DNA from: a virus
Reading direction: 5' to 3' (one strand)
IMG/VR virus record: IMGVR_UViG_3300024346_000494
Span: 1-24,403 of that record
DNA: 24,403 bases
Below the pieces are notes generated by a model. That model was not told where the DNA came from. It worked only from the letters and a program-made list of their open reading frames with translations, and did not search any database. Made by a program: the position numbers and the translations under genes. Positions 5,660 through 13,359 of this stretch are shown piece by piece (position 1 is the first letter of the stretch; every line of letters starts with the position of its first letter).

Positions 5660-5698
5660 GCATGGGTAGGGGCAGGGCGTACCCTGCTCCCTCCATGC
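5660..5698 (-). terminator. Probable terminator hairpin after the VWA-like gene
   Basis: On the minus strand GCAGGG at 5687-5682 pairs with CCCTGC at 5677-5672 around a four-base loop. The stem extends through further GC pairs to GCATGG/CCATGC at the base, with small bulges. CTTTTAAT follows immediately. Position 24-62 bases past the stop at 5722 fits transcription termination or 3' protection of the ribozyme-punctuated unit upstream. A second stem, GTAAGT/ACTTAC, overlaps the stop codon itself near 5706-5725. Confidence 0.55.
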
Positions 5699-5721
5699 AT
5701 GGCTTGTAAGTCATGTCCTAC

Positions 5722-6591
5722 TTACTCGCCCAAGAAGGCCTCAACCTTCCCCAATGTGTTCTTGATGATTTCAATGGCGCTCCCCATGTTGCGGAAATGC
5801 TCAGCGTTGGGCATCAACACCACCTCATCGCAGTTCGTGTGCTTTTGGAAGACATCCTTGCTGATTTTCAAGTCATCCCAAGACTCTACTGACCTGCCAT
5901 ATCCACCACTTACGCGGTTGGCCTTGCCTCCCATATCGCCCTTTCCGTTCTCAAGTATTCCGAATACTAGTCTGCGGAAGAAGGATGGATGGGTTACTGC
6001 GCCTAGTCTGCGGAAGTCTAGGTCTTCGTGGTAGTCCTTCAAGGTTAGCATTTGGATGGTGTTGCTACCATCCTCCAAGGATGCAAGATTGAACCAACAT
6101 GCCGTGATGCGGACATCGCATTTGTCTTGAATCATCTCAGCAACCTTGGCTACTGCTGAACCTTGGTGCAACCAATTCTCTGCATCAACCATGCAGTTAC
6201 CATTTGGTACAATCATTAGGTTGACCAAGGGTCTACGTACCTCGTTCACCTCGTTGAACCAATGCTTCAGTTCTCCCATGATTACGGATGCCGTATCAAA
6301 GATGTCACCATTGTAGTCCATTTGGATGTTTGTGTCCTCCGAATTGAATGCATCGGATAGGTCATCAAAGGACTCAGCAATTGCTTGAGCATTGTAGCCT
6401 TTGGTCTCTAGGGCAAGAGCGTTATCAAAGGACTCAGCAAATTCGCCATCACCATGGAAAGACCCGCTCCGCTCACTATGGCTAGAGGAATCACGCTTGG
6501 CGTTGTCTTTGGTGGCTTGGAAGAATCCTTCAAAGTCTGCTTGGAGCAAGTACGTCTTGTTCTTGCCCATCTTGGAAATAGTGTAAGACAT
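5722..6591 (-). CDS. VWA-like / DUF7192-type partner of the AAA+ ATPase
   Basis: 289 aa from the first ATG at 6589-6591. The N-terminal third is polar with a helix-rich segment (FHGDGEFAESFDNALAL). The middle has RRPLVNLMIVPNGNCMVDAENWLHQGSAVAKVAEMI (in part), that is a hydrophobic strand, a loop, then a helix after a G-S/A element, followed by a second strand VRITACWFNL. This resembles VWA-type domains that pair with MoxR/CbbQ ATPases in phages and operons, although a clean D-x-S-x-S metal site is not visible. The gene follows the ATPase, separated only by a hammerhead ribozyme. Cleavage there would leave a 26-nt leader on this message. Confidence 0.55.
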   Translation of the reverse strand: MSYTISKMGKNKTYLLQADFEGFFQATKDNAKRDSSSHSERSGSFHGDGEFAESFDNALALETKGYNAQAIAESFDDLSDAFNSEDTNIQMDYNGDIFDTASVIMGELKHWFNEVNEVRRPLVNLMIVPNGNCMVDAENWLHQGSAVAKVAEMIQDKCDVRITACWFNLASLEDGSNTIQMLTLKDYHEDLDFRRLGAVTHPSFFRRLVFGILENGKGDMGGKANRVSGGYGRSVESWDDLKISKDVFQKHTNCDEVVLMPNAEHFRNMGSAIEIIKNTLGKVEAFLGE

Positions 6592-6611
6592 TTCATTCAA
6601 TTTAAATGTTT

Positions 6612-6665
6612 GACATGGACATCCCCGAAGGGATGTTTCGGCTATTAAAGCCTCGTCAGCATGTC
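6612..6665 (-). ncRNA. Hammerhead ribozyme HHR1 (type I)
   Basis: Read on the minus strand. Stem I GACATG (6665-6660) pairs with CATGTC (6617-6612). Core CTGACGA is at 6659-6653. Stem II GGCT/AGCC (6652-6649 with 6643-6640) has loop TTAAT. GAA is at 6639-6637. Stem III ACATCCC/GGGATGT (6636-6630 with 6625-6619) is closed by a TTCG tetraloop. C at 6618 is the cleavage nucleotide, so cutting falls between 6618 and 6617. Every conserved core base of the hammerhead is present, including the A15.1-U16.1 pair. It starts three bases after the ATPase stop codon and ends 21 bases before the next ATG. Confidence 0.9.
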
Positions 6666-6668
6666 TGC

Positions 6669-7868
6669 TTAGATGGTTACACCATCCTTGAGTGACTTGA
6701 TTTGGTCATTGGCAAGACCTTCAAAGATGGTCATGCTCAAGGCCTCATCAATCGTGAACCCTGCCTCTACAAGGTCGTTGGCATCAATAGACTGCCGTGG
6801 TGAGATTACCAAGTTCATGGCGAAACGCTTAGCGTTAGCGCGGATGTCCTGCACAATCTGCGTGACCTTCGTGTCACCTGCGATTTGGCGCTCCAAGACC
6901 AAGTCGTAGTTCCAAGAGATTTTCACCCATCGGTTAAGCAAGGCGGCATCTTGGCGGTTACGGCCTCCGTACTCCTTGGATGCTCCGTACCCGAAGGTGT
7001 TCATACAAGCAATGACCTTGAAGTCATCGTGCTTTTTGACCATCCCATTGGGGAACAAGTACTCGTCTCCGCTGAGCATGTTGTTCAGCGCAAGGATGAC
7101 GTTGGGGTTGGCTGCATCCATCTCATCAAGGATGAGGACACCACCATTCTCAAAGGCATCACGAGTCGGGGTAGAAACATACTCGCCCATTGCCGTAGTC
7201 ATCCCGATTAGGTCAAACTTGGAAGTCTGATTTGAGAAAGACTGAATGTAATAGTCTAGACTCAAAGCCTTGGCGCACTGAACTGCTCCGTAGGTCTTGC
7301 CCGAACCTGCCTCACCGACTAGCATGACATTCTTACCGATGCCTACGGCACGGACTAGTTTGTCAAAGTTCTCATGCTGACCATCTACCTTCTTGGTAGA
7401 CTTACCGTACTTGATTTCCAAGGTGCGTATTTCACGACCCTCCATCATTCCCTGCACGATTTCCTTCACTCGCCCCTCATCCAAGGATGGCTTGATGAAT
7501 GGCGCAATGGCATCAATGATTGCCGACTCAAGTCCGTTAGACTTGGGGGTTGGCGCAGGAGCCTCCTCTACTTTAGGGGCCTCACCGCGACTAGAGCGGG
7601 TGATTATGTAGTACCCTTCTCCGGTAGCCTCAAACAATGCTCCGCACTCAAAACGTCCGGTCAAAGTTCCGCCTAGACGGCTGACTTTTTCGTAGACTTG
7701 GTTGGCGGATAGTTTGCCGACTCCATCGGCAGACTTGAGGCCTGCCATTACTGCAACATCTTGAAGGTTGTCGTTTTGCCATTGGCCATCGGGGGTGGTG
7801 ATGCGCCAATTTTGGGGGCTGATGCGACCATTTATAAGTTCGCCTTTCATGTAAGTTACCTTGCTCAT
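6669..7868 (-). CDS. MoxR/CbbQ-type AAA+ ATPase
   Basis: 399 aa from ATG 7866-7868 (MSKVTYMKGE). A longer frame to 7928 exists but would run through ribozyme HHR2. Residues 1-95 form a separate N-terminal domain, followed by a linker rich in A, P and E (about 98-110). The AAA+ module carries Walker A GEAGSGKT at 185-192, Walker B GGVLILDEMDAAN at about 242-254, a sensor-1 segment IACMNTFGYG near 287-294, and an arginine-containing NRQDAALLNRW at about 304-314. MoxR-type ATPases remodel protein complexes together with a VWA-domain partner, here the next gene. In phages their target is unknown. The gene is bracketed by two hammerhead ribozymes. Confidence 0.85.
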   Translation of the reverse strand: MSKVTYMKGELINGRISPQNWRITTPDGQWQNDNLQDVAVMAGLKSADGVGKLSANQVYEKVSRLGGTLTGRFECGALFEATGEGYYIITRSSRGEAPKVEEAPAPTPKSNGLESAIIDAIAPFIKPSLDEGRVKEIVQGMMEGREIRTLEIKYGKSTKKVDGQHENFDKLVRAVGIGKNVMLVGEAGSGKTYGAVQCAKALSLDYYIQSFSNQTSKFDLIGMTTAMGEYVSTPTRDAFENGGVLILDEMDAANPNVILALNNMLSGDEYLFPNGMVKKHDDFKVIACMNTFGYGASKEYGGRNRQDAALLNRWVKISWNYDLVLERQIAGDTKVTQIVQDIRANAKRFAMNLVISPRQSIDANDLVEAGFTIDEALSMTIFEGLANDQIKSLKDGVTI

Positions 7869-7917
7869 GGTAATAAGTATTGTGAGACTAATAGATTGCC
7901 CTAGTCTCTTGGGCGTT

Positions 7918-7971
7918 GACATAGACATCCCCTAAGGAATGTTTCGGATAGTGAACCCTCATCAGTATGTC
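7918..7971 (-). ncRNA. Hammerhead ribozyme HHR2 (type I)
   Basis: On the minus strand: stem I GACATA (7971-7966) with TATGTC (7923-7918); core CTGATGA (7965-7959); stem II GGGT/ATCC (7958-7955 with 7949-7946), loop TCACT; GAA at 7945-7943; stem III ACATTCC/GGGATGT (7942-7936 with 7931-7925), loop TTAG; cleavage C at 7924. Compared with HHR1 the stems carry paired changes: the stem I closing pair G-C becomes A-U, and a stem III C-G becomes U-G. Pairing is therefore kept while the sequence drifts. The TGA stop codon of the 80-aa gene (7964-7962) lies inside the CUGAUGA core. Confidence 0.92.
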
Positions 7972-8204
7972 TGAAAGAAGCCTAGGCCTTTCACGAAGCC
8001 TACATAGTCTAGTGCTTCATCTTGTGTCATGCCTAGACTCCAATCCATTCGGTGAAGGAATGAATCCCCATTGAATGCTTGTACCTCTTGGAATTCTAGA
8101 CCATCACGAAAGAAGGTATTGATGATTACCTTGTAAGTTCCGAACTTGTAAGTGATTTGGTTGCCTTTGTTCATGTTTTCTAGGGTTTTAAGTATGTTTC
8201 GCAT
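7962..8204 (-). CDS. Hypothetical protein, 80 aa, between two ribozymes
   Basis: The frame starts at ATG 8202-8204 (MRNILKTLENMNKG) or at an internal ATG at 8172-8174. The later start would keep coding DNA clear of ribozyme HHR3, whose stem II contains the first ATG. The product has a beta-rich half (NQITYKFGTYKVIINTFF) and a helical end (TQDEALDYVGFVKGLGFF). No family recognised. It is the first gene of the cluster with the AAA+ ATPase and VWA-like protein, and its stop codon is nested in HHR2. Only a few dozen bases of untranslated RNA would remain on the message after both ribozymes cut. Confidence 0.65.
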   Translation of the reverse strand: MRNILKTLENMNKGNQITYKFGTYKVIINTFFRDGLEFQEVQAFNGDSFLHRMDWSLGMTQDEALDYVGFVKGLGFFQTY

Positions 8205-8239
8205 TTGCTCATCAGTACGGCTTTGGCCGTAGACATACT
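8191..8239 (-). ncRNA. Hammerhead ribozyme HHR3 (type III)
   Basis: On the minus strand: stem III 5' arm AGTATGT (8239-8233); cleavage C at 8232; stem I TACGGC/GCCGTA (8231-8226 with 8221-8216), loop CAAA; core CTGATGA (8215-8209); short stem II GC/GC around AAAT (8208-8201); GAA (8200-8198); stem III 3' arm ACATACT (8197-8191). All core positions fit. Here stem III is the open stem, so the permutation is type III, unlike HHR1 and HHR2. The ATG at 8204-8202 is inside stem II. Stem II of two (at most three) base pairs is short and may reduce activity. Confidence 0.85.
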
Positions 8240-8760
8240 AGGTGGGCGTTGGGCAGGTTCTCCGAAGTTCTTCCCTGCTTACTAAGCCCACCAAGTACCC
8301 TTGCTCACAAAGCGAATGCTCTGTGACCACCTTGGTGGCTCCCCATTTAGATGCGCCCATCGTTCCCTTGCTCTCCCTATACCGCTAGATGTCTAGTGGT
8401 GTAGTTACCCCAAGGTGATTTGGCAAGTCTCAGTTTCGCAGGCTTCGGCTCTCAGTTTCGTTCCTCCTCCGCAGAGCATTCCAAGCGGACATCCGCTTGG
8501 GGCTAAGTTCGGGCTTGGTCTACTAGTGGAGGCCTCTCGTGGCTCACTTGCGACTTTGCATCCTAGTTCCTCCGTTGATACCGCCTGCTTTCAGCGCATT
8601 TGGTCACTCAAATCTACTTTCGTATCCTATAGCCTTTCGGGTTGGGAGGGTAGGTTTTTTCTAGCGCTTTATCCGATGTCTTGGTCGGGCTTACTAGAGG
8701 CGGTGGTCAGTCAGTCATTCAGTTCGTGTTGTTTGATGGTTCAAAGGTAGTCGCAGAGAT
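8240..8760 (-). ncRNA. Structured leader RNA candidate released by HHR3
   Basis: No gene-like frame is convincing over about 520 bases, and the stretch is visibly GC-richer than the DNA to its right. It holds strong hairpins. AGCC-ACCAAG (8340-8331) pairs with CTTGGT-GGGCT (8295-8285), enclosing TCACAGAGC/GCTTTGTGA (8326-8305). A 9-bp stem is at 8381-8400 and an 8-bp perfect stem CCAAGCGG/CCGCTTGG is at 8481-8500. There is also a GCAGG/CCTGC stem near 8255-8280. CTCAGTTTCG occurs twice (8429, 8451). The orientation is inferred from HHR3 and the downstream leftward genes. It may be a long structured non-coding RNA or an unusually long 5' leader. Confidence 0.45.
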
Positions 8761-8776
8761 TTAATAAAAAAATTTT

Positions 8777-8803
8777 GTAAGTACTTGATACTCAGTGGGT
8801 TAC
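8777..8803. repeat. 27-bp imperfect palindrome, copy 1
   Basis: First of five copies. The consensus has outer arms GTAACT and AGTTAC and a centre CTTGATnnTCAG. This copy reads GTAAGTACTTGAT, then ACTCAGTGGGTTAC. It lies closest to the leftward leader RNA. Likely a binding site for a dimeric DNA-binding protein. Confidence 0.75.
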
Positions 8804-8818
8804 GAAAAAAAATCTGAC

Positions 8819-8845
8819 ATAACTGCTTGATTCTCAGTTAGTTAC
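8819..8845. repeat. 27-bp imperfect palindrome, copy 2
   Basis: Reads ATAACTGCTTGAT, then TCTCAGTTAGTTAC. It starts 42 bases after copy 1, about four helical turns, so both could be bound on the same DNA face. Confidence 0.78.
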
Positions 8846-8885
8846 ACATAAAAAAACCTCTTGAAAAAAAAAGTGAAAGTTTTTT

Positions 8886-8912
8886 CTAACTGCTTGATTT
8901 TCAGTCAGTTAC
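8886..8912. repeat. 27-bp imperfect palindrome, copy 3
   Basis: Reads CTAACTGCTTGAT, then TTTCAGTCAGTTAC. Its right end overlaps by two bases a TACGTTTG promoter box on the minus strand (8918-8911), so a protein bound here would block the start region of leftward transcription. Confidence 0.78.
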
Positions 8913-8918
8913 AAACGT
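8911..8918 (-). promoter_or_regulatory. Possible leftward promoter -7 box (TACGTTTG)
   Basis: Exact match to TAnnTTTG on the minus strand, directly beside palindrome copy 3. Transcription from here would pass through the hairpin-rich leader and ribozyme HHR3 into the AAA+ gene cluster. No clear -33 TTTG is seen at the usual distance; TTTA near 8935 is the nearest approach. Confidence 0.4.
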
Positions 8919-8959
8919 AATTTATACTCATTCTAAATAAGGAATTAGCGGATATGAAC

Positions 8960-8986
8960 CTAAGTCCTTGATTATCAGATACTTAC
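8960..8986. repeat. 27-bp imperfect palindrome, copy 4
   Basis: Reads CTAAGTCCTTGAT, then TATCAGATACTTAC. The central TTGAT-N-ATCAG is close to a perfect inverted repeat. It starts 74 bases after copy 3, about seven helical turns. Confidence 0.75.
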
Positions 8987-9022
8987 GTATTATGGCCAAG
9001 TCTAAGGCCCAATGGATAGGTA

Positions 9023-9039
9023 AGTGTATGATGTACACT
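9023..9039. repeat. Palindrome AGTGTA-N5-TACACT
   Basis: Perfect six-base arms around a five-base spacer. TACACTAAG, its right arm plus flank, recurs at 9339-9347 and, reversed, at 9137-9145. This is a second class of candidate operator lying between copies 4 and 5 of the 27-bp element. Confidence 0.5.
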
Positions 9040-9139
9040 AAGTCTTTTATATGAGTATGTAATCCCGCCTATGCGCTTGATACAAAATAGATTGCAGGCT
9101 TCCAAATAAAAGTGCGTTAAGTTTATGTTAAATCTACTT

Positions 9140-9156
9140 AGTGTATAAAGTACACA
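9140..9156. repeat. Palindrome AGTGTA-N5-TACACA
   Basis: Second copy of the AGTGTA-N5-TACAC element, 117 bases after the first, with five perfect arm pairs. Its left flank CTTAGTGTA is the exact reverse complement of the right flank of the first copy. Confidence 0.45.
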
Positions 9157-9169
9157 CAGATTTGGACAC

Positions 9170-9196
9170 GTAACTACTTGATTATCAGGCACTAAG
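9170..9196. repeat. 27-bp imperfect palindrome, copy 5
   Basis: Reads GTAACTACTTGAT, then TATCAGGCACTAAG. The left arm and centre are intact; the right arm is degraded. It starts 210 bases after copy 4, about twenty helical turns, on the side of the rightward genes. Confidence 0.7.
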
Positions 9197-9299
9197 CACT
9201 TCTCCGCAAAAAGGTATCCGTACCCCATAACGCACAAAGTGCGCTTAAAACGGCTTTAAATGCGTCATGTCACACGGATGACATATGCAAATATTTTGT

Positions 9300-9321
9300 A
9301 CACATTTAACACACATTTAAC
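9300..9321. repeat. Tandem 11-bp direct repeat ACACATTTAAC
   Basis: Two perfect head-to-tail copies at 9300-9310 and 9311-9321, just after the AT-rich AAATATTTTGT. Spacing of 11 bases is about one helical turn, which suits adjacent protein binding. Confidence 0.55.
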
Positions 9322-9487
9322 ATTGTAATTGTACATGCTACACTAAGGGTATGTGTACCCAACATTGGATGTTACAACATGCATTTCTAGGTGGGGCAGT
9401 TTAGGTGGGGGATTGTCCTGCCCAAAAGCATTTCCGTGTTTGAACATCAATCGTTTCGGGTTTACTCCCGGCATCGGCTAGACTTTA

Positions 9488-9541
9488 TTAGGGAAGTCTA
9501 ACTATGTTAGGCAAAACGCTGAAATGTTAGGGAAGTCTAAC
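9488..9541. repeat. Direct repeat TTAGGGAAGTCTAAC, two copies
   Basis: Perfect 15-base copies at 9488-9502 and 9527-9541, 39 bases apart. The first can also pair with TAGACTT at 9480-9486 to form a 7-bp stem with AAGTCTA, and each copy has weak internal symmetry (TTAG/CTAA). This could be a regulatory site or RNA hairpins in the rightward leader. Confidence 0.55.
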
Positions 9542-9743
9542 ACAATTGGGTGGGGGGTGGGTTTGGGATTTGGTTTCCGGTTGTTTTGCGTTGCCGCATC
9601 GCATCGCATAATCCCCACACCACATATAACTCACCATTTTTTGCTATCAGTATGCGCCAAGCAGTTAAAGTTTTGCTTTAAGGTTGACTTTATCATTTTT
9701 TTTCGCTAACTTCGCACCACCGAATGCGGTGATACTGCATTAA

Positions 9744-9818
9744 GAGCAACTCAATAAGAAGGTCGGGTTGGTTAAAACCCCCCTCCTGATTAGAGAAAAC
9801 ACAAATAAGAGGTTGCTC
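9744..9818 (+). other. 75-nt folded element closed by a 7-bp stem
   Basis: GAGCAAC at 9744-9750 pairs perfectly with GTTGCTC at 9812-9818, enclosing GGGTT/AACCC (9765-9769 with 9776-9780). Size and closing stem recall a tRNA, but there is no D arm, no TTC T loop and no proper anticodon loop. It lies 33 bases before the first rightward promoter box. Could be a leader or terminator structure for transcripts coming from the control region. Confidence 0.3.
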
Positions 9819-9850
9819 GTTGAGTCAGCAATTCGGGGTGCTATTATTTA

Positions 9851-9858
9851 TATATTTG
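9851..9858 (+). promoter_or_regulatory. Promoter -7 box (TATATTTG) for 9863 gene
   Basis: Matches TAnnTTTG and lies four bases before the ATG at 9863. If it acts as a -7 box, the message would start at or next to the start codon and have almost no leader. No clear -33 element. Confidence 0.55.
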
Positions 9859-9862
9859 TCGT

Positions 9863-10315
9863 ATGAAACTACGAGTTATAAGGTACTATAGTGCTGACGA
9901 TTACACACTTGGTATGCTATTAGACGAAACAAGTGGACGAAAGTTCCTAGCCTACACTCTTGAAGACGAACACAGAGAGGTAAAGGTGGCTGGAGAGACT
10001 AGAATTCCCGCCGGGACATATAACATTACCCTCAGGAAAGTTGGAGGGTTCCATTCAAAGTATTCTACTAAGTATGGTTCAATGCACAAGGGGATGCTAT
10101 GGGTTAGAGATGTACCGGGATTTGAATATATTCTTATTCATACGGGAAATACGGACGAGCATACTGCTGGTTGTTTGTTAGTTGGAAATACATCAGACTA
10201 TAAAGGTATAATTGGCTCGTCTGTAGACGCATATAAGAGAATATACCCTGCAATAGCAAAAGTTCTTACTGATGGAGGCTCTGTAGAAATAACATACGAG
10301 AACTACGACCTGTAA
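9863..10315 (+). CDS. DUF5675 family protein, probable lysis enzyme
   Basis: 150 aa. The pattern LEDEHREVKVAGETRIPAGTY (in part, from residue 33), then WVRDVPGFEYILIHTGN at 80-96 and T-x-GCLLVG at 101-108, fits the DUF5675 family. In this family a conserved H, an N and a cysteine in IHxGN...TxGC form the likely active site (H93, N96, C104 here), recalling L,D-transpeptidase/peptidase-like folds. Members sit in phage lysis or structural regions and are thought to act on the host cell wall. No signal peptide or membrane segment, so a separate holin would be needed if it is an endolysin. It is the first gene of the rightward block. Confidence 0.75.
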   Translation: MKLRVIRYYSADDYTLGMLLDETSGRKFLAYTLEDEHREVKVAGETRIPAGTYNITLRKVGGFHSKYSTKYGSMHKGMLWVRDVPGFEYILIHTGNTDEHTAGCLLVGNTSDYKGIIGSSVDAYKRIYPAIAKVLTDGGSVEITYENYDL

Positions 10316-10337
10316 AAAAACGAATAAAAAGAATAGT

Positions 10338-10345
10338 TAAATTTG
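10338..10345 (+). promoter_or_regulatory. Promoter -7 box (TAAATTTG) for 10351 gene
   Basis: Exact TAnnTTTG match followed by CA, five bases before the ATG at 10351. Same close spacing to the start codon as the 9851 box. Confidence 0.5.
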
Positions 10346-10350
10346 CAACT

Positions 10351-10617
10351 ATGAAAACGATTAAAGATACCGACCCCAAGAAGACGAAGAAGTCTACTCA
10401 TTCAGTTATGCCTATGACTCCTGCAGAGCAAAAGGAATTTAAAGAAATGATGTGGCGCAAAAAGAATGAAATATCTTCATCTGCCCCAGTTGGCGGTGAG
10501 GCCCAGCGCAGTAAGTATGAGGAGCGTTTCGCAAGAATCCGCGACAGATTTGAGGCTGGAGGTAAACTTCGCGAATCATCTCGTGCCTATAGGCATGGTG
10601 GTAAAATGAAAAAATGA
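10351..10617 (+). CDS. Small basic protein, 88 aa
   Basis: Highly charged and probably largely helical: lysine-rich start (MKTIKDTDPKKTKKS), a central helix (TPAEQKEFKEMMWRKKNE), then an R/E-rich helix and a glycine-lysine tail (RHGGKMKK). No family recognised. Net positive charge suggests nucleic-acid contact or a small virion component. Its stop overlaps the next ATG (ATGA). Confidence 0.6.
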   Translation: MKTIKDTDPKKTKKSTHSVMPMTPAEQKEFKEMMWRKKNEISSSAPVGGEAQRSKYEERFARIRDRFEAGGKLRESSRAYRHGGKMKK

Positions 10618-10757
10618 AAACCAAGAGAAAAGAGGTAATGGTCTCTGCTCCAGATGGATACCACTGGATGGTTGAGCGCGGGCGTTATTATCTTATGATT
10701 GGAGATTATAAAAAACATAATGGGGCTGCAAAACAAGTTCCGTTTAAAGTTAAGTAA
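10614..10757 (+). CDS. 47-aa hypothetical protein
   Basis: ATG at 10614 overlaps the previous stop by 4 bases; TAA at 10755-10757, five bases before the next ATG. The product begins MKTKRKEVMVSAPDGYHWMV and has aromatic-rich strands (GYHWMVERGRYYLMIGDY), a likely small beta sheet. The APDG-[YF]-HWM pattern is of a kind found in short phage structural-region proteins. Function unknown. Packing makes it a convincing gene despite its size. Confidence 0.6.
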   Translation: MKTKRKEVMVSAPDGYHWMVERGRYYLMIGDYKKHNGAAKQVPFKVK

Positions 10758-10762
10758 TAGTA

Positions 10763-11857
10763 ATGCAAGCAAAGAAGAAAAAACCTACTGAACCTAAAAA
10801 CAATAGGCAATATAATAGAATTCTAAGACGGGTTGAGAAAAATAGAAACAACCTTGAAAAGACTTCTCCTATATACCAAGATTTGGATAGCCAATACAGC
10901 GTTCCGGAAGGTTACCCTTCTCTTGAAGAGTTTGCTAATCAAAGAGAGGCTGATAGAATATATGGTCAAGCGCATCCTTTAAGAGGGTATACTGCTCAAA
11001 TTCCCCTTGGCCCAATTGCTTATGAAAGATGGCTTGGCCCGCGTAGAAGTAGAGATGGTAAAGATTATAGACTTCCATATTTTGCTGAAAGAACAATAAG
11101 CAGAGGAAATCCTTATAATGTATGGAATACCGAGGGAACTGGTAAAAAAACAAAGTCAGAGCAAGATTGGTATTCTAACTTTGGTGCAACAACCAGCAAT
11201 GCTGGAGAATATTATCCTACTTGGCAGGCTAATAGGAACATGAAGAAAGGTCACCAAATTGAAAAATCAAACAGAACTTTATTAGGTAAAGTAAAGCATA
11301 CTCCCGGCTCTATAGTTCCACAAGCGAATATTTTGCTTGGCGGAGGAGCGTCTACGGGTGGAAATAGAATTCTTGACTGGCCACTAGAAGTTGGAAGTGT
11401 TGCGTTAGCAGCAAAAAATATCTATAATGCTGGTCGCAAACTCAGACCATCATATTCAGCATCTTCATCTGGATATAGTTCAGCAGCAAAAGATTCTGGC
11501 CGTTTTGCCGGTATTGGACTTGCCAACTTAGGAATGGCAAAAACAGCGTGGGATTTAAATGGTCAAGAGTTAGTTGTTCCGACAAGCGGATTTAAAGTTA
11601 ATCCTTACATCGGCGCAATGCGCAGAACTAGAAGAGAAGGAAAAGAAGAACAAGAAAAATACAAACGCTATAACAGGCTCAAGCCAGAGGCTCAGGAAAA
11701 AAGAAAAGAGGCTGAGCAAAAAAAAGTATCTAATCTTGTTAGACTGTATCAACAGCGCTATGGTGTTGAGCCGACCTATGGAATAAGTCCAAATTCAAGT
11801 ACTACTTCAAAGTATGGCGGTCTTGACCCTAACGGCAGTGACGTTAATCGTTATTAA
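10763..11857 (+). CDS. Hypothetical late protein, 364 aa
   Basis: Basic at both ends. Residues 1-35 are rich in K, R and N, and a long charged helix near 285-320 (RRTRREGKEEQEKYKRYNRL...) precedes a flexible S/T/N/G tail. The middle is rich in G, Y and N (LGPIAYERWLGPRRSRDG), and a hydrophobic, alanine/glycine-rich stretch lies around 210-255. No catalytic motif seen. Placement with late genes and composition suggest a virion-associated protein, possibly injected or DNA-bound, but that is inference. It ends tail-to-tail with the leftward regulator gene, the two stops overlapping. Confidence 0.6.
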   Translation: MQAKKKKPTEPKNNRQYNRILRRVEKNRNNLEKTSPIYQDLDSQYSVPEGYPSLEEFANQREADRIYGQAHPLRGYTAQIPLGPIAYERWLGPRRSRDGKDYRLPYFAERTISRGNPYNVWNTEGTGKKTKSEQDWYSNFGATTSNAGEYYPTWQANRNMKKGHQIEKSNRTLLGKVKHTPGSIVPQANILLGGGASTGGNRILDWPLEVGSVALAAKNIYNAGRKLRPSYSASSSGYSSAAKDSGRFAGIGLANLGMAKTAWDLNGQELVVPTSGFKVNPYIGAMRRTRREGKEEQEKYKRYNRLKPEAQEKRKEAEQKKVSNLVRLYQQRYGVEPTYGISPNSSTTSKYGGLDPNGSDVNRY

Positions 11858-12288
11858 AGTATTATAGCCTCGCTTCCGTCTAGTTTCCTGTAAAATTTTG
11901 TTACAAACAAACGACCTTTCTGGGTTAATGCGTAACGAACCTTGTAGTTAAATCTGGTCATTTCAGAACGAAAGTATTCAGAAACCTCATCGTTTACCGT
12001 CTTGGTAAGTTTATCATACTTTTTATATAAATAATCTTTTCCAAGTAAAGGATATATAATCCGCTGCTTAAGTTTTAATTCGCTTTGAAGCATATGCTCA
12101 GATATTGCTTCTGCTGTAAAAAACTCATAGTCATAAGCAAACAATAGAAATTCCATTTCTGACGGACTAACGTCATAGTTTGTTGTCATGTCCCTTAAGC
12201 ACAACTTATAATACTTTAAGTAATTTGCTTTTATTTTATCTGTTGGCATATAAGCAAACTCTCTGGCTTTACTTGGCTTAGACATCAT
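11854..12288 (-). CDS. Winged-helix regulator (MarR/PadR-like)
   Basis: 144 aa. Residues 38-84 (DVSPSEMEFLLFAYDYEFFTAEAISEHM and KLKQRIIYPLLGKDYL, in parts) give the order helix, short strand at the turn, helix, recognition helix. They are followed by a wing (YKKYDKLTKTV) and the [YR]-ALTQKG-[RK]-x-[FL] element at 119-127 that closes many MarR-type wings, then a C-terminal helix. It likely binds DNA as a dimer. It is the only leftward gene in the late block, and its promoter faces that of the 12331 gene. That makes self-control or switching of the adjacent fibre gene a reasonable idea. Confidence 0.65.
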   Translation of the reverse strand: MMSKPSKAREFAYMPTDKIKANYLKYYKLCLRDMTTNYDVSPSEMEFLLFAYDYEFFTAEAISEHMLQSELKLKQRIIYPLLGKDYLYKKYDKLTKTVNDEVSEYFRSEMTRFNYKVRYALTQKGRLFVTKFYRKLDGSEAIIL

Positions 12289-12300
12289 TTGAATTTTAGT

Positions 12301-12308
12301 TAAATTTG
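12301..12308 (+). promoter_or_regulatory. Promoter -7 box (TAAATTTG) for 12331 gene
   Basis: Exact TAnnTTTG match 22 bases before the ATG at 12331. It faces a leftward box two bases away, the pair forming TAAATTTGTACAAAATTA. Confidence 0.5.
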
Positions 12309-12310
12309 TA

Positions 12311-12318
12311 CAAAATTA
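12311..12318 (-). promoter_or_regulatory. Promoter -7 box (TAATTTTG) for the wHTH gene
   Basis: Exact TAnnTTTG match on the minus strand, 22 bases before the regulator start at 12288. Both promoters occupy the same DNA, so only one could be used at a time. Confidence 0.45.
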
Positions 12319-12330
12319 AAAAAACTAGAC

Positions 12331-13359
12331 ATGGCTCAGTTAACTGGCAATAAAGTAAAAGATACATACGGTCAACTTCTTAAAGTACAAACTTCCGGAA
12401 TTACTACAACACGCAAAACCGTAGAAAGCGGAATCGGTGAAGCAACCGCCCTTAGCGTTGGAAGTACTAGTGTTGGATTAACAAACCCGTATGCAACATC
12501 AGTACCTTCAAGTAATACTTTAAGTACCGCCTTGTTTCTTGATACAGATGGCCAAATTAAAACAAGGTCGCTAGGAAACCAAGCATTTGAAAATCTTGCT
12601 CCAGTAACAGACTACGACACCGGGTGGATTGAAATGGATTCTTTTGATGGAGTAAGCGGTTTGTTTAAACTTGATTCAAATCCTAATGCACCTAAGTATA
12701 GAATTGTAAATAGACAAGTTTTTCTTAAAGGATTTTTTGTTCTTCCTGTAACATCTTTGTATCAAGACCAAAATTCTCCAGCGGTAAGTATTTATAGCGA
12801 TGTAGAAACCATTCAGTCTTCTACCCTCGCCACACTTAATACAGGCGTAACACCTACGGCAGATGGAAGAATTATTTTAAATAAAATTTTTAATAATGAT
12901 TTCTTTTATCTTGACGAAGATGAGCATGGCGCTTTGTTTCTTCCAATGTTTAGATATGGTGTAGACCCAACATCTACACGAAAGTTTATGTACAACACGT
13001 TTGCTGCTTTTAAATTTAACTCAGACTTAACTGCTGAAGTTCAGTCTATGCACTACTATGAGCAAGCGGGCCAAGTAAATGCTATCCCGATGCATCAATC
13101 GGCTACTCATGAAGTGATTAATAAGTTTATTGGAGGTTCCGGATATACGTTTATGAACTATGATGGTACTGGTCAATACTATACTCATTTCTTAAATAAT
13201 ACAGACAAACGCGCTGTTACTGATTCTAATGTTGAAATTCCATATACATTCTTAGGTGATGGGGCTGACATGAACACTTGGGGTGGTGTCATAGTTCCTT
13301 TGGACGGGATTAGTTTCTTTTTATCAAGAAACCTATCTTTGTCTCAAATTCACCCTTAA
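12331..13359 (+). CDS. Structural/fibre-type protein with KDTYG anchor motif
   Basis: 342 aa. The N-terminus LTGNKVKDTYGQLLKVQTSG matches the start of the 19857 protein (YIKDTYGNVLTIGTVSG), a shared segment that probably docks both to the same virion part. The region 10-90 is rich in S, T and G, as in fibre shafts; the rest (about 95-342) has many F/Y-rich strands typical of a globular beta head. No enzyme motif seen. It lies apart from the other fibre genes, next to the winged-helix regulator. Likely a head or tail fibre, or a receptor-binding component. Confidence 0.6.
   Translation: MAQLTGNKVKDTYGQLLKVQTSGITTTRKTVESGIGEATALSVGSTSVGLTNPYATSVPSSNTLSTALFLDTDGQIKTRSLGNQAFENLAPVTDYDTGWIEMDSFDGVSGLFKLDSNPNAPKYRIVNRQVFLKGFFVLPVTSLYQDQNSPAVSIYSDVETIQSSTLATLNTGVTPTADGRIILNKIFNNDFFYLDEDEHGALFLPMFRYGVDPTSTRKFMYNTFAAFKFNSDLTAEVQSMHYYEQAGQVNAIPMHQSATHEVINKFIGGSGYTFMNYDGTGQYYTHFLNNTDKRAVTDSNVEIPYTFLGDGADMNTWGGVIVPLDGISFFLSRNLSLSQIHP

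Follow-up and report, generated by a model that had tools for sequence, protein, structure and literature searches.

Gene content of the leftward operon

The window analysed here, the whole 24,403 nt of a metagenomic viral contig, belongs to a tailed phage whose terminase and portal are like those of Flavobacterium and Cellulophaga podoviruses. A second, near-identical contig was found (L006/L010, 99.9% over 6.8 kb), and a blastn search of the region against cultured phages gave no match. From right to left, the leftward operon and the region upstream of it hold the following features:

8778..9197, strand not given: five repeats of 27 nt (TAACTGCTTGATTNTCAG...), within the divergent region
8232..8750, minus strand: non-coding leader of about 500 nt, 52% GC, between the repeats and HH1
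8239-8191, minus strand: HH1, type III hammerhead, predicted cut at 8232/8231
7962..8174 (70 aa), or from a start at 8204 (80 aa), minus strand: small orphan ORF, no family match
7971-7918, minus strand: HH2, type I hammerhead, predicted cut at 7924/7923
6669..7868, minus strand: MoxR-type AAA+ ATPase (AAA_5, phrog_249)
6665-6612, minus strand: HH3, type I hammerhead, predicted cut at 6618/6617
5722..6591, minus strand: DUF7192 protein, presumed MoxR partner (Pfam PF23822, 2.6e-21)
5698-5660, minus strand, TTTT tail to 5656: terminator-like hairpin, read directly

The divergent region upstream of the leftward operon is non-coding over about 1.6 kb and includes both the 27-nt repeats and the GC-rich leader. 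The five repeats likely represent a control region between divergent operons, and are candidate operator, promoter or origin repeats. The leader, whose 3' end is set by the predicted HH1 cut, has no homologue among the loci fetched and was rejected as a known RNA since it matches no Rfam family. It was also rejected as an unusually stable fold, with a z of −0.76 over 559 nt; only its 3' part comes to a z of about −3, a value also seen in some of the coding windows used as controls. Several possible GNRA-type loops can be seen within it.

The first-pass annotation had described a three-gene operon with a hammerhead just upstream of each gene and a terminator-like hairpin closing the set. It is clear that the leftward cluster is longer than this, as it runs on with more genes to the left end of the window, and that only the first three junctions carry ribozymes, with no further hammerheads among the leftward genes beyond them. 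The hairpin is present but ends in a tail of only TTTT, is not listed by the scan, and is followed by the rest of the cluster. The ribozymes do occupy gene junctions, with HH3 starting 3 nt past the MoxR stop codon and the TGA that ends the 80-aa ORF (7964-7962) falling inside the CUGAUGA core of HH2, but the description is approximate for HH1, which contains the possible ATG (8204) of the 80-aa ORF, with another ATG in frame further on, at 8174.

Regarding gene identities, the MoxR-type ATPase holds, while the product of the third gene, which had been called VWA-like, matches no VWA model in Pfam and is instead matched by DUF7192. Its predicted structure is of low confidence (pLDDT 51.5), and the best PDB match of this low-confidence model, the NorQ-NorD VWA domain complex, is weak (E 0.02); that the protein is weakly VWA-like is a fair guess from the model.

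The start of the MoxR gene allows several readings. Its frame is open across the HH2 cut, with further in-frame AUGs at 7922 and 7928, of which the one at 7928 would be removed by the cut and the one at 7922 would start one base into the cut message. The AUG at 7868 is preceded by a hairpin (GAGACUA...UAGUCUC).

Cores, folds and detection of the three hammerheads

The window was searched with a strict scanner, for which a match needs CUGANGA, a GAA with A as its next base, the U of a U-H cut site, and three adjoining helices. It returned exactly three matches, all on the minus strand, compared to none from 400 Markov-shuffled windows (9.8 Mb). These matches confirm the three positions first proposed; in each of them the core is complete, three stems are present and the base at the cut site is C. 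Written 5' to 3' with the cut marked by a caret, the three ribozymes are:

HH1: AGUAUGUC^UACGGCCAAAGCCGUA-CUGAUGA-GCAAAUGC-GAA-ACAUACU
HH2: GACAUA-CUGAUGA-GGGUUCACUAUCC-GAA-ACAUUCCUUAGGGGAUGU-C^UAUGUC
HH3: GACAUG-CUGACGA-GGCUUUAAUAGCC-GAA-ACAUCCCUUCGGGGAUGU-C^CAUGUC

All of them have the CUGANGA and GAA core with the A15.1-U16.1 pair, and all have GUC as the NUH cleavage triplet. Stems I/II/III as counted by the scanner comprise 6/3/7 pairs in HH1 and 6/4/8 pairs in both HH2 and HH3, with stem II reaching 2-4 bp in the minimum free energy (MFE) fold. The MFE structure of each isolated ribozyme is the hammerhead fold; with flanking context the MFE keeps the hammerhead in HH1 and HH3, and HH2 is less secure, as it competes with neighbouring pairings. 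Loop-loop or pseudoknot contacts are needed for fast hammerhead cleavage at low magnesium. Stem II of HH1 has only 2-3 pairs, and a two-pair stem II is common among natural hammerheads (Perreault et al., 2011; PMC3088659). It was also observed that the cut strand of HH1, AGUAUGUC (8239-8232), is exactly complementary to the first eight bases of HH2, GACAUACU (7971-7964, minus strand), and so the two ribozymes could cross-pair over these 8 bases.

HH2 and HH3 are identical at 45 of 54 bases (83%), and this similarity fades directly beyond the ribozyme borders. Among the nine differences, two base pairs show compensatory changes in both partners and one U-G pair has become C-G; the others fall in loops or at the free N of CUGANGA, so that all pairs and the core stay intact. 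Judged from these sequences, HH2 and HH3 are copies of one another that have kept their pairing while diverging; HH1 is without a diverged copy.

Scoring with the Rfam covariance models does give matches, but all three fall below the gathering score, which is the curators' cut-off and not a structural feature. HH1 scores 35.7 bits against RF00008 (E 1.5e-5 for the short stretch searched; gathering score 48.5), while HH2 and HH3 score 24-25 bits against their best Rfam match, the RAGATH-1 hammerhead (RF03152), far below its gathering score of 56.3 and with that family's extra 5' hairpin poorly matched. When the whole window was scanned with cmscan, none of the three was listed even at E 1, and Rfam at the gathering score likewise reported none of the six hammerheads of another phage contig (L177). 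Since all six of these were also missed, it is likely that the cut-off rather than the motif is responsible. Hammerheads below the gathering score, such as those in the window, would therefore be overlooked by routine annotation, which suggests that the class is commoner than records imply.

Hammerheads and pistol ribozymes at other phage gene junctions

We surveyed type I hammerheads with a DNA pattern that fixes only the core bases of one type I subclass, so the counts describe that subclass, and they are further shaped by the scanner's requirement for paired stems. Among 2.9 million viral contigs there were 38 stretches matching the core pattern, and bacterial genomes totalling 257 Gb yielded 29. 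All three stems are present in 27 of the 32 distinct viral matches as opposed to 1 of the 29 genomic ones, which marks this subclass as a phage feature; the matches in bacterial genomes are nearly all chance. With relatives found by gene included, the survey amounts to 53 distinct type I hammerheads; these lie in 32 viral contigs, most of which come from one narrow pattern. Many contigs carry two or three hammerheads, and L177 carries six in one operon with Shine-Dalgarno leaders (8745-13228, minus strand). Stem III varies in length and is misaligned by MAFFT. Two scanner matches were discarded, one lying inside a coding gene (L153) and one having long irregular stems (L123).

The positions of these ribozymes relative to genes are strikingly regular and give a positional rule: stop codon, ribozyme, leader of about 26 nt, start. 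In 35 of the 53 cases (5.6% of random sites), the stop codon is placed between −12 and +5 nt relative to the ribozyme, and an ATG lies 10-40 nt 3' of the ribozyme in 40 (12% of random sites). Both occur together in 28 of 53 (53%), whereas the figure for random sites drawn from these contigs is 0.8%. The leader that would remain after the cut has a median length of 26.5 nt, with an SD-like sequence in 23 of 40. As a separate observation, a 347-kb phage contig (L187) has two type I hammerheads within a 21-tRNA array (6470-6760), one directly preceding tRNA-Tyr, and tRNA 5' ends in this array may be made by hammerheads.

Cultured phages show the same kind of arrangement. Cellulophaga phages phi19:3 and phi18:3 each have a type I hammerhead at the same junction; the two share stem II, are nearly alike in stem I and differ entirely in stem III, which is paired in both, so that pairing is again preserved despite divergence. 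In Flavobacterium Elemovirus, a type III hammerhead precedes the first gene of the divergent operon, as HH1 does here; the region is present in 68 of 68 Elemovirus records at an identity of at least 99%, for which reason these are not independent observations. The hammerheads of phi19:3, phi18:3 and Elemovirus are found at the same kind of junction, in the early operon of related podoviruses, but number one each in the parts scanned, compared to three in the window, and they carry no annotation in the records shown. Pistol ribozymes, also not listed in the record annotation shown, were found at gene junctions of three phages, including phi19:3, which carries one besides its hammerhead:

L173: 20369-20436, strand not given: pistol ribozyme, gene junction of Cellulophaga phi19:3
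L245: 4456-4523, strand not given: pistol ribozyme, gene junction of Cellulophaga phi46:3
L175: 2564-2642, strand not given: pistol ribozyme, gene junction of Tenacibaculum Gundel_1

The special connection to an ATPase machine suggested by the first-pass annotation is not supported: the MoxR-DUF7192 pairs of four relatives (L036, L007, L008 and L093) are all without hammerheads, and in other phages hammerheads precede unrelated small genes. We therefore rejected conservation of hammerheads with this gene pair and do not consider the ribozymes a MoxR-DUF7192 feature; among open-licence papers, we found none linking MoxR with phage hammerheads. Most of the terminase or DUF5675 relatives fetched are also without them. 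Since relatives keep these genes in their absence, hammerheads are, by this comparison of sequences, dispensable for the terminase, DUF5675 and MoxR-DUF7192 genes.

Probable processing of the leftward transcript

We consider it probable that HH1, HH2 and HH3 are working hammerheads that act as built-in processing sites of the leftward phage transcript. This reading starts from what is directly observed, namely the motifs, their positions, the divergence that preserves pairing in copies and orthologues, and the recurrent layout of stop, hammerhead and start. Cleavage in the window phage we infer from the intact motifs together with the published activity of similar sets (PMC3088659). That the sites are placed to cut one transcript into single-gene messages, as was first proposed, is supported by both sequence and comparison.

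In the proposed mechanism, each ribozyme would fold as RNA polymerase passes it and cut once, co-transcriptionally. The HH1 cut would free the non-coding leader of about 500 nt from the first message, which would then begin with a 5'-OH and a 6-bp hairpin and retain the ribozyme itself. HH2 and HH3 would remain on the 3' end of the upstream message, just past its stop codon, where they would form a compact structured terminus carrying a 2',3'-cyclic phosphate; the message that follows would start with a 5'-OH and a short leader. The RNAs expected from these cuts are the leader, a 308-nt small-ORF RNA, and messages of 1306 nt for MoxR and about 960 nt for DUF7192. Such cutting could uncouple the decay of neighbouring messages and define both of their ends without a host nuclease, and it may affect message stability or protein ratio.

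An alternative that we regard as unlikely is that translation gates the cut. With the upstream stop codon next to or inside stem I, the terminating ribosome would cover the core and block folding; cutting would then be restricted to times when the upstream gene is not translated, and the ribozyme would sense translation or a shortage of ribosomes during infection. In line with this, 35 of 53 type I hammerheads have their stop codon between −12 and +5 nt, with the stop overlapping the ribozyme in 19, and the HH2 stop lies inside CUGAUGA, but such tight spacing may merely reflect compact phage genomes, and hammerheads can cut before the ribosome arrives. Moreover, the stop lies more than 5 nt away in 12 of 53 cases and none is nearby in 6 of 53, and HH1 as well as the Elemovirus hammerhead precede a first gene, where there is no upstream ribosome. 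The broader proposal that the subclass serves as translation-gated punctuation and as a general nuclease-free means of setting boundaries and ratios, with hammerhead and pistol interchangeable at such sites, seems to us similarly improbable.

We give no more credence to the ribozymes being selfish or decorative cassettes, small duplicating elements tolerated at gene ends that cut but are useless to the phage. The sharp borders of the near copies HH2 and HH3 and the scattered presence of hammerheads among relatives would be expected of such elements, but the orthologue stems stay paired despite complete sequence change, the placement from stop to start is strong and constant, and pistol, another ribozyme class, occurs at junctions in operons of this kind. 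The fact that pistol occupies the same kind of junction suggests selection for cutting and not for one element.

Finally, it is very improbable that a host or phage ligase circularises the 308-nt RNA between HH1 and HH2: its predicted 5'-OH and 2',3'-cyclic phosphate ends are of the kind that suits RtcB-type ligases, and a tRNA-splicing ligase and an RNA ligase are annotated in Cellulophaga phi38:1 and phi19:3, respectively, but no ligase was recognised among the ORFs searched in the 24-kb fragment, phi38:1 shows no hammerhead, and circular or spliced products of phage hammerheads were sought and not found by Perreault et al. (PMC3088659).

Processing sites for the leftward transcript, the reading that we prefer, have precedents. 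Perreault et al. (2011; PMC3088659) described clustered hammerheads flanking individual prophage genes, among them a triple set around ardA in Agrobacterium tumefaciens and sets in Azorhizobium and Clostridium scindens, and proposed processing into single-gene messages; the tandem phage hammerheads cleave in vitro, and the triple set also in E. coli. The window is a further case of what was described there, with several hammerheads on the same strand flanking single genes and a phage context given by terminase and portal, and the arrangement, which had been called unusual, was thus already reported and active in 2011 and extends to the 32 viral contigs of our survey. Unlike the published sets, the window has an orphan ORF, MoxR and DUF7192 as its genes, is a Bacteroidota podovirus-type contig, and combines one type III hammerhead with two duplicated type I copies. 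Theta ribozymes at phage tRNAs (PMC10879173) are likewise self-cleaving and process the phages' own transcripts, but have an HDV-like fold and process tRNAs, whereas the window hammerheads would process messages.

Compared with open-licence literature, such that later papers may report parts of it, the present work extends the account of Perreault et al. (2011; PMC3088659) by a stop-ribozyme-start rule set against random sites as its null, whose spacing we did not find stated in the accessible text of that paper, as well as the divergence of paralogues and orthologues, cultured hosts for tests, pistol at the same kind of site, and Rfam cut-offs that hide the class. The purpose of phage hammerheads, still an open question in 2011, is now testable since the arrangement recurs in dozens of surveyed phages and in cultured ones: phi19:3, phi18:3 and Elemovirus would allow RNA ends to be mapped and the ribozymes to be inactivated. 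We also observed the anti-restriction gene ardA, the gene flanked by the published triple set (PMC3088659), in the leftward operons of Cellulophaga phi18:3 (L243: 3961-4527) and phi13:2 (L244: 3930-4496).
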